Of a stretch of DNA of 64,000 nt, positions 18,034-26,526 are shown in pieces. Origin of the DNA: Sneathiella sp. P13V-1 (lineage in GTDB: Bacteria; Pseudomonadota; Alphaproteobacteria; Sneathiellales; Sneathiellaceae). Made by a program: the position numbers and the translations under genes. Below the pieces are notes generated by a model. It searched no databases. It was given only the letters and a program-made list of their open reading frames with translations, and was not told the origin of the DNA. The DNA is taken from positions 1,302,001 through 1,366,000 of the forward strand of contig NZ_WYEU01000001.1 in the NCBI RefSeq assembly GCF_015143595.1. The letters run 5' to 3'. The number at the start of each line of letters is the position of its first letter. Position 1 is the first letter of the stretch.

Positions 18034-18648
18034 ATGAACAAGATCTTTGCATATTCCGTCGCAGCCCTCGTCCTTGTTGGTGTGGTTATTACAGCATTGG
18101 TGCTTACAGGCGCCTTGCCGGAACCTAACAGTTCCCGTCAGCGCTCCGGTACGATTGTTGGGGCACCTCAAATCGGGGGCGCTTTTACACTGACCAATAA
18201 CAAAGGGCAGGTGGTAACGGCAGAAGATTTCAAAGGCAAACTGATGCTGGTCTTCTTTGGTTACACTTTCTGCCCGGATGTGTGCCCAACAGAAATGAAC
18301 GTTTATGCGCAAGTTATTCAAGGTTTGGGTGATAAGGCAGATGGTGTGACCCCTGTCTTTATTACAGTGGACCCTGAACGCGATACAGTTGAAGTTATGG
18401 ACGAGTTCGTAAATGCTTTTGACCCACGCATTGTGGGGCTTACAGGCACAAACGAACAAATCGCCGAGGTGAAGAAAGCTTACCGTGCATACGGTCAAGC
18501 AGTGAACAAGGAAGATGACCCGGATTACTATCTGGTAGATCATACCTCCTTCAGCTACCTGATGGATAAAGAAGGTAACCTGAGCACTGTCTTCTCCTAT
18601 GGAACATCCCCGGAAGAGATCATTAAGAAAATTAGTGAACAACTTTGA
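18034..18648 (+). CDS. SCO1/SenC family copper chaperone for cytochrome c oxidase
   Basis: A 204-residue thioredoxin-fold protein anchored by one N-terminal membrane segment (IFAYSVAALVLVGVVITALVL). The copper ligands are visible: CPDVCP in GYTFCPDVCPTEM (about residues 86-98) and the distal His in YLVDHTSFSYL (about residue 175). It delivers copper to the CuA site of cytochrome oxidase. The open frame reaches back to 17968, but the ATG at 18034 places the membrane anchor right at the start. It overlaps the upstream end of the PCuAC open frame, and the three genes 17.5-19.2 kb read as one assembly operon. Confidence 0.94.
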   Translation: MNKIFAYSVAALVLVGVVITALVLTGALPEPNSSRQRSGTIVGAPQIGGAFTLTNNKGQVVTAEDFKGKLMLVFFGYTFCPDVCPTEMNVYAQVIQGLGDKADGVTPVFITVDPERDTVEVMDEFVNAFDPRIVGLTGTNEQIAEVKKAYRAYGQAVNKEDDPDYYLVDHTSFSYLMDKEGNLSTVFSYGTSPEEIIKKISEQL

Positions 18649-22037: not shown

Positions 22038-22655
22038 ATGGATTTACTAAAAAACGGATCTGAAAACGCAAAAACAAAGATTATCCTGGCTCATGGGGCG
22101 GGCGCGCCCATGGATAGTCCGTTTATGGTGTTCTTTGCTGAAAAACTCGCAGAGCTTGGCCATGAAACTGTTCGCTTTGAATTTCCTTATATGCAGCAGC
22201 GCCGCGAAACCGGATCAAAGCGGCCACCAGATCGCCAGCCGAAATTGTTGGAGCGCTGGCAGGAGGTAATTGGGGCTGAAAGAAATGACGGTCAGAAACT
22301 GATCATTGGCGGGAAATCAATGGGTGGGCGCATGGCGTCACTGATTGCGGATGAAGTGGGCGCTGATGGGCTGGTGTGTCTCGGGTATCCGTTTTATGCC
22401 ATGGGTAAGCCGGACAAGCCACGGATCGACCATCTAATGGACATTAAAACCCCCACTTTGATCGCCCAAGGGGAGAGGGACACCATGGGTAATCGTGAAA
22501 ATGTCGCGAAACTTACCCTTGCCAGTTCGGTTGAGTATCACTGGCTGCCAGATGGAGATCATAGTTTCAAGCCACGAAAAGCGTCCGGCCGGACGGAGGA
22601 AGAAAACTGGCTGGACGCTATGGAAGCTGTGGATCAGTTCGTTCAAAAACTCTAG
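22038..22655 (+). CDS. alpha/beta hydrolase, KANL3/TEX30 family
   Basis: A 205-residue soluble hydrolase-fold protein. It starts with the strand and oxyanion turn IILAHGAGAPMDSPF, has FEFPYMQQRRETG, the nucleophile elbow IIGGKSMGGRMAS (GKSMGG, Ser at about residue 96), PTLIAQGERDTMG with the acid residue, and PDGDHSFKPRK with the catalytic His near residue 182. This combination is the KANL3/TEX30 family of small bacterial dienelactone-hydrolase-like proteins. The natural substrate is not known. It ends one base before the stop of the convergent dehydrogenase-like gene. Confidence 0.9.
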   Translation: MDLLKNGSENAKTKIILAHGAGAPMDSPFMVFFAEKLAELGHETVRFEFPYMQQRRETGSKRPPDRQPKLLERWQEVIGAERNDGQKLIIGGKSMGGRMASLIADEVGADGLVCLGYPFYAMGKPDKPRIDHLMDIKTPTLIAQGERDTMGNRENVAKLTLASSVEYHWLPDGDHSFKPRKASGRTEEENWLDAMEAVDQFVQKL

Positions 22656-23201
22656 TTAGCTCGGGGCGAGGGCGGCACTTTGCCCGCTGCCAATGTCCCC
22701 TTCCAGTTTGATGTCTTTCGACACTAAATCAAGTAGAGGTTTTACAGTGCTCAGATTTTTCTGGTTTCCGCCTGCAGATAATTTGAGTTTTCCTTCGATG
22801 GCTTCTTCATCATTTCCGCGCGCTGGGATATCTATCCAGTCACCGCCTCTTGCGCGTGCAAGTTTGGCGTAATGTTTTGTGTCTGTGACAGATGTTGTCG
22901 ACATGTCGACAATAAGGGTTTCCGCCGCCAGATTTTTAAGAAGCCCGTCATCCCCTTCCATAACTTCCGGCATTTCAGTTGGGTCCAGAAACAGGAAAAC
23001 CGGCTGGCCACTCATTTTTGCGGCGAGATCAGACAATGAAGCGGTAAGGCTGATCCCCATTCGGGCGATTTCGTAGCGAATGGCAGGCCTGATATGATAG
23101 GCGAAAATTTGTACTTTATGGTCAAGAAAACGGCGGATAATGGGTCGCCCCATTCCGCCGATACCTACAACACCAATTGTTGTTCCGGATAAATTCCCCA
23201 A
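22656..23201 (-). CDS. short NAD(P)-binding protein, N-terminal half of a 3-hydroxyisobutyrate dehydrogenase
   Basis: About 181 residues carrying only the Rossmann domain of the beta-hydroxyacid dehydrogenase family. GVVGIGGMGRPIIRRF is the dinucleotide-binding motif, followed by VFLFLDP and LIVDMSTTS, and LKLSAGGNQKNLSTVKPLL. Full-length enzymes have about 290 residues; here the chain stops at GSGQSAALAPS, exactly where the inter-domain helix with the catalytic Lys (usually GxGxxxK) begins. It is therefore either a remodelled binding protein or a truncated remnant. The start is probably the TTG at 23201, which has GGGAGGG six bases upstream; the ATG at 23216 is in fact part of that site and has none of its own. 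Confidence 0.72.
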   Translation of the reverse strand: MGNLSGTTIGVVGIGGMGRPIIRRFLDHKVQIFAYHIRPAIRYEIARMGISLTASLSDLAAKMSGQPVFLFLDPTEMPEVMEGDDGLLKNLAAETLIVDMSTTSVTDTKHYAKLARARGGDWIDIPARGNDEEAIEGKLKLSAGGNQKNLSTVKPLLDLVSKDIKLEGDIGSGQSAALAPS

Positions 23202-23207
23202 TGTTGT

Positions 23208-23257
23208 CCCTCCCATTAGTTTTATTTAATTAAGAATAATATAATAAAATGGGAGGG
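23208..23257 (-). promoter_or_regulatory. inverted repeat covering the Shine-Dalgarno site of the short dehydrogenase gene
   Basis: Ten-base perfect arms, CCCTCCCATT at 23208-23217 and AATGGGAGGG at 23248-23257, separated by 30 bases of nearly pure A+T. In the minus-strand mRNA the downstream arm contains the GGGAGGG ribosome site of the TTG start at 23201, so pairing would hide it. It lies 19 bases after the terB stop codon, between two genes of the same direction. Confidence 0.6.
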
Positions 23258-23276
23258 ATTTCTACGGGATAATGGT

Positions 23277-23684
23277 CTAGAGGCGCTGGAAGCGCGTCGC
23301 TGCACCGCGTTCGATGGCTGCGGCTGTTAAACGATCCACATTCAGGCCATGACGTAGGATTTCAAGAAGGCGCAATTCTTCCTGACTTAACTGTCCATCA
23401 CATACAGCAATGTCACACGCCAAGGCATAGGCCATATCGTGAAGTTTCTTTGGAAGAACGGCCTTGATCTTGGCGACCATGGCATCCAAGCCTTCGGTTT
23501 CCTGCAGCAATTCCATGGAGCTTTTGGCGTCCGCTGGCAGATGTTCTTCGTTATATTCCGCAAAAATCGGAAGCATACGGACGACTTCACCAATTGTATT
23601 AAATTCGCGGTCTGTCATGTCGCCGTCAGCCGCGGAAACGATCACCATGGTCGAAATCAGTGCGGTATGAAGATTTAGGGACAT
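23277..23684 (-). CDS. TerB-like tellurite resistance family protein
   Basis: A 135-residue all-helical acidic protein. The TerB/DjlA fold markers are the two helical-hairpin metal sites: STMVIVSAADGDMTDREFNTI (about residues 11-31) and CDIAVCDGQLSQEELRLLEIL (about 89-109), each with an Asp-Gly turn followed by an acidic helix. Such proteins bind divalent metal and are linked to envelope stress, but the exact role is unknown. No terA, terC or terD gene is nearby. It may be co-transcribed with the short dehydrogenase gene that follows, across the inverted repeat. Confidence 0.85.
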   Translation of the reverse strand: MSLNLHTALISTMVIVSAADGDMTDREFNTIGEVVRMLPIFAEYNEEHLPADAKSSMELLQETEGLDAMVAKIKAVLPKKLHDMAYALACDIAVCDGQLSQEELRLLEILRHGLNVDRLTAAAIERGAATRFQRL

Positions 23685-23736
23685 TCAGTTTTGCTCCTGT
23701 TGCAAAGTTTTATTTCGTTAGAGCAGGATATGGCGA

Positions 23737-26526
23737 TCAGCTTTTAATATCCAAGGAAATTTTTGCCTCTTCCTGCTCTTTCTCCGCCAGGAAATTCCGT
23801 GTGAGGCTTATGGCGTCTTTCAATCCCACCCTCTCAATTTCAACACCGGGCGGGAAAGCCGTTGCTAATCTGGATGGCATCATACTGTCTAACATGACAA
23901 ACACACCATAGTCAGTATCGCGGCGAAGAAGGCGACCATAGGCCTGTTTCAGCTTCAACCGGGTGAGCATATCATCGTAGCGACTTCCCCCAAAGGCGGC
24001 TTTTCGGGCTTTGTGTTTCAAATCCGGGCGAGGCCATGGGACGCGGTCAAATACCATCAAGCGCAAAGAACGTCCGGGGACATCAACACCATCGCGAACA
24101 GCATCCGTTCCCAACAGAACGGAGTTCTCCTCCTCGCGGAAGATATCCACCAAAGTTGCTGTATCCATGGCATCCATGTGCTGCGCATAGAGATCAATAC
24201 CGTTTTCGGACATGCTATCGGCGATGTTTTTGTGCACTTCACGCAAGCGCCAGATAGCGGTGAACAGACCGATGCCGCCACCTCCTGCCGCAAGGAAAAG
24301 TTCACGATAGGCGCTGGACACCTCTTTCATATGATCACGCCGTACATCGGTGACAACAATGACCCGTGTACGGTTTTTGAAATCAAACGGGGATGTCAGA
24401 TGCGTGCGTTTGGGCGGCAGGACCAGATGACTGGCACCGGTACGCATATCAGCGGAGGTCCAGTCATCATCTTCTTCGATTTGATCACGCAAAGTTGCTG
24501 AGGCAATTAAAACACCATGGGAGGGTTTCAACATAACTTCGGAGAAGGGCTTCGTTGGGTCGACCCAGCTTCGGTAATAACCTAAATCAAAATCACGTCC
24601 TCCCACGCGCTCCAAACCCAACCAGTCCACAAAGGCGTCAGGTGTTGGCTCGTTCAGGTTTTTAAGGATATCAATCCATGGCGAGATCATGGTGGCTGTT
24701 CGTCGGGACAAGCCCTGAACCGCAGCTTCGATCCTTTGGCGTGTGGCGGTATCCAGCTCCTCCGCATCTTCATCAAGGCGTTTCACCAATGTCTTGGCGA
24801 GTTTCATCAACGGGGTTGCCAAATCGGCCAGCGCTTTTTCAAGTTTGAGTGCCGCTTCTTCAACCCCATCCACAAATTCAGTGGCGGCACATTCGATGCT
24901 ATAGGGGCTATCCGGGGCACCAGAACGCGCCCGTACCTGCCCTTTGATTAAGTGGAGGAAAGTTTCCATGGGGCCATTGGGAAGGCCATCTTCCAGCCGT
25001 TTCATCCATCCATCTTTTGGCAGGCAAAAGCTTGCGTTGATAGCATCCTGCAGATGAGCTTGGCCTTCTTCATTGTCGCCAAGCAGGTCAGAAATGCGCT
25101 TTTCAAGGCCGCGCATACGGCCTTTCCGGGCGGTATCACTTCCTGATATCCAGCGGCGAAGTTCTGCGCCTTCAAGGCCGGTTAGATGAACAGAAAAGGC
25201 GCTGTCAGCCGCATCAAACAAATGATGCCCTTCGTCAAAAACATGACGCTTTGGCAGGTTTGGATCATCCGGGCGAGAAGCGGCATTGATCATGACAAGC
25301 GCATGATTGGCAATGACGATATCTGCTTTGCGGGCTTTGCGCGTAGATTTCTCGATAAAGCATTTCTTGTAATGACTACAGGCGGAGTAAATGCATTCCC
25401 CCCGTCGATCCGCCAGTCGGTTAATCCGGCCATGTCCTGCAAGTTCAAATAACCATCCCGGCAGGTCGCCGCCCATATCGCCATCACGGGTCGCAGATAA
25501 CCAACGGGCAATCATGCCCAAGATAATACGGTCTCCGGCCATGGCTGCGCCGCCCTGCAATGCTTCTTCATAATTTAGAAGGCAGACGTAATTTTCGCGG
25601 CCTTTACGAACCACGGCTTTTTGGCGTTTGATGGCGGGATCGGGGTAAAGCCGGTCCAGTTCTTCATCAATTTGACGTTGCAGGTTCTTTGTGTAGGTAG
25701 AAATCCAGACGGCGGTTCCGTTTTTCTCCGCCCAAACACTCGCCGGGGCGATATAACCCAAGGTTTTACCCGTACCAGTGCCAGCCTCCGCCAGCACAAG
25801 GCGCGGGCAATCTTCTTGCTCCCGTGGGGTGAAGGCATGGGATGCCGCCGCACTGAAGTCAGCTTGTTGGGGACGGGCTTCCGCCCCTTCATGTAAAATC
25901 TCCTGAAGACGCACGCGGGCTTCCTGATCGCTTACCGGTTCATCATCGGGCGGCGGGTCGGGGGCAAAATCAGGCCATTCCGGCAGATCTTTCCAAATAT
26001 CAAGCCCGCCATAGGGACCTTTGCCTTCTGCGACACCCAATGCGGCCAAAACATACGGGGCCCAATTCCAGCCCGCCTGTCCCATCGTCATCGCGATGCG
26101 GGAAGCTGCTTTTCGATGATCTGCCGGTAAGCGCGTTAAGCGATCCAGAAGAAGGTTCACAACCTCATACAATCTGAAGGCTTGATCTTCTAAGCTGTCA
26201 GGTTCGTCTAACCCCAGCGCTTGCGCGATGCCGCGGGCGGTTGGCAGGCAGGATTTCGCAGGGCAAGTGAACGCAAACAGCTCCAGAATATCGAAAGCAG
26301 TAAATGGGTTCAGGCCCATTTTTCGGGCAGTTGCCAAACGATGGATAACAAGTGGCGGCACATCACCGATTTTGGGAATGGCCTCATTTACTGATTCTTC
26401 GACAATTTCACCGTCACTGGTCAACCATGTGACGTGACTGCCATAGACCACCAGAACAGGGGCTTCCGGCAGGCGGATTTCCCCGCCATTGTCTCCCTTT
26501 TGCCTGTCTGTCTGGTTTTCTTCCAT
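23737..26526 (-). CDS. DinG/XPD-like ATP-dependent DNA helicase
   Basis: A 929-residue superfamily 2 helicase with an iron-sulfur cluster. Walker A EAGTGTGKTLGYIAP is at about residues 247-261, the DEAH-type motif is FDEGHHLFDAAD at about 428-439, and four cysteines lie between them (one in YVCLLNYEE, three in ECIYSACSHYKKC), as in DinG and XPD. The C-terminal helicase motif V/VI segments are LLGTDAVRDGVDVPG and KQAYGRLLRRDTDYG. The N-terminal 200 residues are an extra domain starting VLVVYGSHVTWLTSDGE, found in alphaproteobacterial members. It should unwind 5' to 3' during repair of blocked replication. A monocistronic unit by spacing. Confidence 0.92.
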   Translation of the reverse strand: MEENQTDRQKGDNGGEIRLPEAPVLVVYGSHVTWLTSDGEIVEESVNEAIPKIGDVPPLVIHRLATARKMGLNPFTAFDILELFAFTCPAKSCLPTARGIAQALGLDEPDSLEDQAFRLYEVVNLLLDRLTRLPADHRKAASRIAMTMGQAGWNWAPYVLAALGVAEGKGPYGGLDIWKDLPEWPDFAPDPPPDDEPVSDQEARVRLQEILHEGAEARPQQADFSAAASHAFTPREQEDCPRLVLAEAGTGTGKTLGYIAPASVWAEKNGTAVWISTYTKNLQRQIDEELDRLYPDPAIKRQKAVVRKGRENYVCLLNYEEALQGGAAMAGDRIILGMIARWLSATRDGDMGGDLPGWLFELAGHGRINRLADRRGECIYSACSHYKKCFIEKSTRKARKADIVIANHALVMINAASRPDDPNLPKRHVFDEGHHLFDAADSAFSVHLTGLEGAELRRWISGSDTARKGRMRGLEKRISDLLGDNEEGQAHLQDAINASFCLPKDGWMKRLEDGLPNGPMETFLHLIKGQVRARSGAPDSPYSIECAATEFVDGVEEAALKLEKALADLATPLMKLAKTLVKRLDEDAEELDTATRQRIEAAVQGLSRRTATMISPWIDILKNLNEPTPDAFVDWLGLERVGGRDFDLGYYRSWVDPTKPFSEVMLKPSHGVLIASATLRDQIEEDDDWTSADMRTGASHLVLPPKRTHLTSPFDFKNRTRVIVVTDVRRDHMKEVSSAYRELFLAAGGGGIGLFTAIWRLREVHKNIADSMSENGIDLYAQHMDAMDTATLVDIFREEENSVLLGTDAVRDGVDVPGRSLRLMVFDRVPWPRPDLKHKARKAAFGGSRYDDMLTRLKLKQAYGRLLRRDTDYGVFVMLDSMMPSRLATAFPPGVEIERVGLKDAISLTRNFLAEKEQEEAKISLDIKS

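Follow-up and report, generated by a model that had tools for sequence, protein, structure and literature searches.

We propose that the spacer between a terB-like gene and a downstream gene for an NAD-binding protein in Sneathiella sp. P13V-1 may insulate the second gene from the first at the level of translation, by means of a promoter nested in a hairpin that masks the Shine-Dalgarno (SD) sequence. From sequence comparison and modelled folds, we assign this reading a probability of roughly 0.42. In the proposed mechanism, the spacer contains a promoter, and its −10 box is situated between the hairpin arms in the window (by which we mean the whole 64,000-nucleotide stretch of DNA that was analysed) and inside the 5′ arm in other Sneathiella. 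RNA reading through from terB would contain both arms and fold, such that the SD would be hidden and the downstream gene would go untranslated, whereas RNA from the local promoter would begin inside the hairpin, lack the 5′ arm and be translated from a free SD. The arms, the SD, the start codon, the conserved box, the masking in read-through RNA and the complementarity between diverged species are computed, and we infer both the existence of terB read-through and a negative effect of masking on translation. Our search of the literature found no description of the terB/NAD-binding-gene spacer locus; the one Sneathiella paper retrieved that mentions transcription start sites appears to deal with a different topic, and the accessible part of PMC8450116 has no bearing on read-through.

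The inverted repeat and the gene behind it

The first-pass annotation of this DNA had described an inverted repeat with perfect 10-base arms. The repeat is real and its arms are perfect, but they are 11 nt long rather than 10 (TCCCTCCCATT at 23207–23217 and AATGGGAGGGA at 23248–23258), with 30 nt between them. The 30 bases that had been placed between 10-base arms and called A+T include two C, and so are not purely A+T. Read on the minus strand, the 5′ arm is UCCCUCCCAUU (23248–23258), which lies between the −35-like and −10-like elements described below, and the 3′ arm is AAUGGGAGGGA (23207–23217), which contains the SD. The loop is itself partly paired: repeat search and folding both identify an imperfect inner stem (23220–23249, minus strand; arms 23237–23249 and 23220–23232, 85%) that lengthens the main one. 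The predicted fold of the 52-nt hairpin by itself is −19.7 kcal/mol, and the fold of a 121-nt region has a z score of −2.61, with an equally good fold in 1 of 200 shuffles.

Considered as a bare inverted repeat, the pair of 11-nt arms is not above the chance rate. Across 464 kb of the strain's own genome, the window included, there are 4 perfect repeats with arms of at least 11 nt and loops of 20–40 nt, and the same count in five Markov resamples gave 4, 2, 1, 4 and 3. When loops of 3–60 nt are allowed, the same 464 kb (again with the window) holds 31 perfect repeats with arms of at least 11 nt, against 2–10 in Markov resamples, and this excess contrasts with the lack of one for loops of 20–40 nt. 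The arm pair, searched for as a pattern with a gap of 20–50 nt, was found in 0 of 23 other genomes and is single-copy in its own genome, which rules out a dispersed repeat.

The SD, GGGAGGG (23208–23214, minus strand), sits 7 nt before a TTG codon (23201–23199), and SD-like purine runs are found at the same place in the spacers of 22 relatives. The first-pass annotation had taken the second arm to be the SD for a TTG codon at 23201, and this is supported by the alignment of the 22 relatives, in which the proteins begin at the TTG column. Start codons in this set are TTG in three (L001, L002 and L003) and ATG in 19, and the aligned N-termini share the common pattern M..L.G..(V/I)G (L042 was masked beyond its N-terminus in the protein alignment). 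The same annotation had correctly treated an apparent ATG (23216–23214) as part of the arm. This ATG is not a likely start because the five extra residues that it would add are missing in relatives, and we have rejected it as a candidate.

From its TTG start, the target gene (22656–23201, minus strand) encodes a protein of 181 aa that corresponds to the NAD-binding half of a beta-hydroxyacid dehydrogenase (PF03446, Pfam E 2.1e-29) and is without the C-terminal domain of these enzymes. The protein ends with GSGQSAALAPS, and is cut right at what we take to be the motif bearing the catalytic lysine of beta-hydroxyacid dehydrogenases. The terB-adjacent relatives outside the genus (L021 and L054) are full enzymes, continuing with GAGQIAK. 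Judging from sequence, the Sneathiella target seems to be a Rossmann-only protein whose catalytic half has been lost. The upstream gene, which would be the source of read-through RNA, is a terB-like ORF of 135 aa (23277–23684, minus strand; PF05099, Pfam TerB E 4.1e-8) that was found in 23 of the 24 Sneathiella genomes searched; the first arm of the hairpin begins 18 nt past its stop. On the other side, an alpha/beta hydrolase gene on the opposite strand converges on the end of the target gene.

A promoter-like box and predicted masking of the SD

Between the arms of the window lies a promoter-like box, TATTATATT (23238–23246, minus strand), which was absent from the first-pass annotation and which reads TATAATATT in many relatives. 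Conservation of this −10-like box was assessed in 18 representatives, hand-picked from the 22 spacers. Its columns are T in 18/18, A in 17/18, A in 18/18, T in 18/18 and A in 18/18; the near-invariant TATAATA is the best-kept block of the terB-to-gene spacer, and the box stands 38–48 nt before the start in all 18. The columns of the window's 5′ arm, at 0.07–0.6 bits for offsets −12 to −4, rank with the most variable positions in the spacer. Upstream of the box, a weak −35-like hexamer, TAGAAA (23259–23264, minus strand), occupies the place of TTGCCA, TTGCAA or TTGGCA in relatives, and a TTGCCA-like hexamer is present 12–14 nt before the box in most of the 18 representatives. A distance of 12–14 nt from the hexamer to TATAAT is too close for standard sigma-70, and the distance becomes 15–17 nt if AATATT is used. 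A sigma-70 promoter scan returned nothing in relatives L032, L077 and L018; in the window one site overlaps the box, and the 2 sites found there are not above shuffles (mean 1.5). The spacing and the scan count against a promoter, but we propose that the box may be a working one, apparently of housekeeping type, and that transcription would start in the region 23227–23234 (minus strand), some 7 nt past whichever of the two possible −10 hexamers is used. RNA started at the box would not include the 5′ arm, and therefore the hairpin is expected only in terB read-through RNA.

This arrangement divides the earlier claim that the hairpin hides the SD. In any RNA that contains both arms, the claim agrees with prediction (0.0001 unpaired at 37 °C). 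For the gene's own mRNA it is not supported, as this RNA should miss the upstream arm, given the promoter-like box between the arms; the SD is predicted to be 0.81 unpaired for a transcription start at about 23234 or 23228. The window SD has the lowest predicted unpaired probability, 6.6e-5, of 240 SD-bearing ORFs from 464 kb of the same genome (the control set comprising only ORFs of at least 450 nt with a purine-rich SD), and when its upstream sequence was shuffled 100 times this value was reached in 0 cases. As a modelled SD-masking structure, then, the window hairpin is more than chance. The control ORFs resemble their own shuffles, with means of 0.373 vs 0.381 and a mean rank of 0.496.

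Across 22 Sneathiella spacers, the SD is predicted to be unpaired with a mean of 0.15 in read-through RNA vs 0.56 in RNA started 7 nt past the box, and the mean shuffle ranks are 0.24 for read-through RNA and 0.64 for own RNA. Alignments were used to assign the −10 positions and start codons of the 22 manually; L021, an outgroup without a comparable spacer, was removed from the set, and L097, the first 75 nt of which are the same as those of L042, was not counted. The read-through rank is at most 0.045 in eight of the 22 (L001, L002, L005, L008, L011, L014, L015 and L020), and it is 0.42–0.85, meaning that the spacer fails, in L017, L007, L006, L077, L013 and L042. Trimming the leader from 75 to 31 nt increases the unpaired probability of the SD by an average of 0.32 in the 22 spacers vs 0.06 in the 240 control ORFs. 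An SD that is masked in the long leader and free in the short one occurs in 5/22 spacers vs 4/240 controls, the window gene being present in both sets; the Fisher p value is 1.3e-4 with the window gene taken out of the controls and 9.6e-4 without the window gene.

Complementarity across the genus and competing readings

Comparison of the arms in related genomes, the check suggested in the first-pass annotation, gave a divided answer: the letters of the arms are not conserved, but the halves of the spacer appear to stay complementary genus-wide by using different letters. The evidence comes from a chimera test, in which the left half of one species' spacer was joined to the right half of another's and folded. 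In the first split, cognate halves averaged −13.6 kcal/mol vs −11.2 kcal/mol over all pairs, and 0 of 5000 permutations were as good. When the right half ended 3 nt inside the gene, the 22 spacers gave a cognate residual of −2.4 to −2.6 kcal/mol (p < 1/5000). When each group was represented by one member, using either 9 clusters (a tighter cut of the same tree) or a hand-made list of 14 groups, both chosen after the fact, the residual was −2.9 to −3.4 kcal/mol, and it was −2.6 to −3.1 without the sequence of the window's own spacer; the 9-group test gave −2.9 to −3.2, with a median p of at most 0.002 with L001 left out. An initial division into 3 clusters lacked power (p 0.17, and 0.50 without L001). 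The dinG-terB spacer, taken as a control from the same 20 genomes, gave a residual of +0.1 to +0.7 (p 0.56–0.95).

Only the total fold energy is cognate-specific. SD masking by itself is not (p 0.10–0.26 for the unpaired probability), because the pyrimidine-rich leaders mask any SD of the set, and the left half of any species masks any SD about equally. In L007, L009, L013 and others, cognate energies are no better than those of chimeras; the left half of the window's spacer ranks 1/22 both in fold energy and in how strongly it masks the SD of its own gene. As to position, the cognate signal is found in the 12 nt before the box (p 0.001; 0.007 without L001) and from the box to +17 (p 0.002; 0.001 without L001), and the segment from −30 to the box alone has none (p 0.13; 0.38 without L001).

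The main rival to translational insulation is an operator acting at the level of DNA, in which a dyad around the promoter start would serve as a repressor's binding site and pairing in the RNA would be incidental. With only Watson-Crick pairs allowed, the complementarity signal is nearly equal on both strands, which is what would be expected of a DNA dyad. When G.U pairs are allowed (middle split), the sense strand has a z of −4.8 vs −3.6 for the antisense strand, with G.U raising the sense signal and lowering the antisense one, and this strand comparison leans toward RNA rather than a DNA dyad. A one-protein operator should also keep its letters, whereas those of the dyad differ between species, conserved half-site letters were not found, and the arm pair recurs in none of the other genomes; nor does a regulator gene adjoin. 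For these reasons we regard a DNA operator as unlikely, although the strain's own genome supplies a possible parallel in its favor: in L108, a dyad (~18080–18137, 19-nt-type arms) with strong SD masking precedes a MarR-like ORF. This long dyad (plus strand) has TTGACA in its left arm and an SD in its right arm, and the ORF after it looks, by eye, like a winged-helix, MarR-like regulator; the dyad probably serves as an operator for autoregulation, and in read-through RNA it would hide the SD as well. A further case of strong SD masking in the same genome (L117, ~5868, minus strand) involves an SD overlapped by AGGACAATTGTCCTAA-type palindromes.

It could also be that, whether or not the weaker genus-wide dyad matters, the 11-nt arms in the window pair by chance and have no function. 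The near-chance rate of such repeats, the absence of the arms from the other 23 genomes and the promiscuous masking by pyrimidine-rich leaders all fit this account, and the rank of the window gene among the 240 ORFs for SD masking, together with the first rank of the left half of its spacer among the 22, argues against it; on balance it too seems rather improbable. The proposal of the first-pass annotation, that the gene's own mRNA carries a regulated translational switch (a thermosensor, or a hairpin opened by a protein or by ribosomes), would need only a transcription start upstream of 23258, and in the relatives L011, L003 and L014 letters downstream of the box are able to pair with the SD. 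We nonetheless find it very unlikely in view of the conserved box between the arms. With 18 nt between the terB stop and the first arm, ribosomes leaving terB seem unlikely to open the stem, and opening by heat is also unlikely: the SD of read-through RNA is predicted to be still only 0.0006 unpaired at 65 °C, a predicted stability on which we reject a thermosensor. No Rfam family reaches its gathering score, all 12 matches in 23000–23500 at E up to 10 falling below it. Finally, the position of the stem 18 nt after the terB stop might suggest a terminator or 3′-end stabiliser of terB, but there is no T run after either arm and a scan of 22600–23750 found 0 terminator-like sites, which makes this role highly improbable; an intrinsic terminator in the window is rejected on the same evidence.

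Related systems and extension to Sneathiella

Translational insulation by a nested promoter has a counterpart in phage T4. In the available portions of PMC3014915 and PMC2988022, the late promoter of T4 gene e is described as lying within the region that encodes the 5′ strand of the hairpin, and for e, soc, 49 and I-TevI, RNAs started upstream hide the SD, whereas RNAs from nearby promoters are without the 5′ strand and are translated. Like these genes, the Sneathiella spacer is predicted to have its promoter nested in an RBS-sequestering hairpin. Unlike T4, the Sneathiella case involves a chromosomal gene and what is apparently a housekeeping-type promoter, without a known timing role. We liken the spacer to this T4-type class from its sequence and predicted folds and do not claim membership. 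Nested-promoter masking is a known phage device that is predicted here, by modelling, for a bacterial chromosome.

In IS10/Tn10, transcripts that read in from outside base-pair over the transposase start and conceal it, which the element's own transcript does not do. The spacer is similar in that its read-through RNA is predicted to be masked and its own RNA is not, and it differs in that no mobile element is seen at the Sneathiella locus. RNA thermometers of the ROSE and fourU types also have a stem that covers the SD, but the Sneathiella stem is predicted to be too stable for heat. Autoregulatory operator dyads are likewise symmetric around the transcription start and pair in RNA, whereas the Sneathiella letters vary across the genus.

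A broader version of our proposal is a genus-wide chromosomal insulator following the T4 logic, in which the promoter is itself the 5′ strand of the hairpin, selection keeps fast-evolving letters complementary, and in some species a terminator after terB replaces or joins the hairpin. Taken jointly, these statements are doubtful, and we put them forward tentatively. In two Sneathiella genomes, the target gene is not near terB and 0 of 22 query proteins were matched (loci L033/L083 and L036/L090, each pair being probably one genome). These loci retain the convergent hydrolase, and inspection by eye found no TATAATA-type box after terB, an absence that speaks for the nested-promoter reading. The terminator scan identified a terminator-like site 3′ of terB in L018; in L033 it placed sites behind terB on one strand. 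A stem followed by a T run is present after terB in L020 and L077 by eye only, the scan having found none in L077 and none in L032, which is the contig of L020. Terminators after terB in some relatives may replace the hairpin masking that may be at work elsewhere.

If translational insulation is correct, bacteria can insulate adjacent genes at translation without a terminator, needing only a promoter set within a hairpin over the ribosome site. Distance-based operon prediction programs, which would join terB and the downstream gene, would then misjudge the expression of the latter. The half-swapping chimera test also provides a simple search for similar cases in which letters diverge too fast for covariance models.
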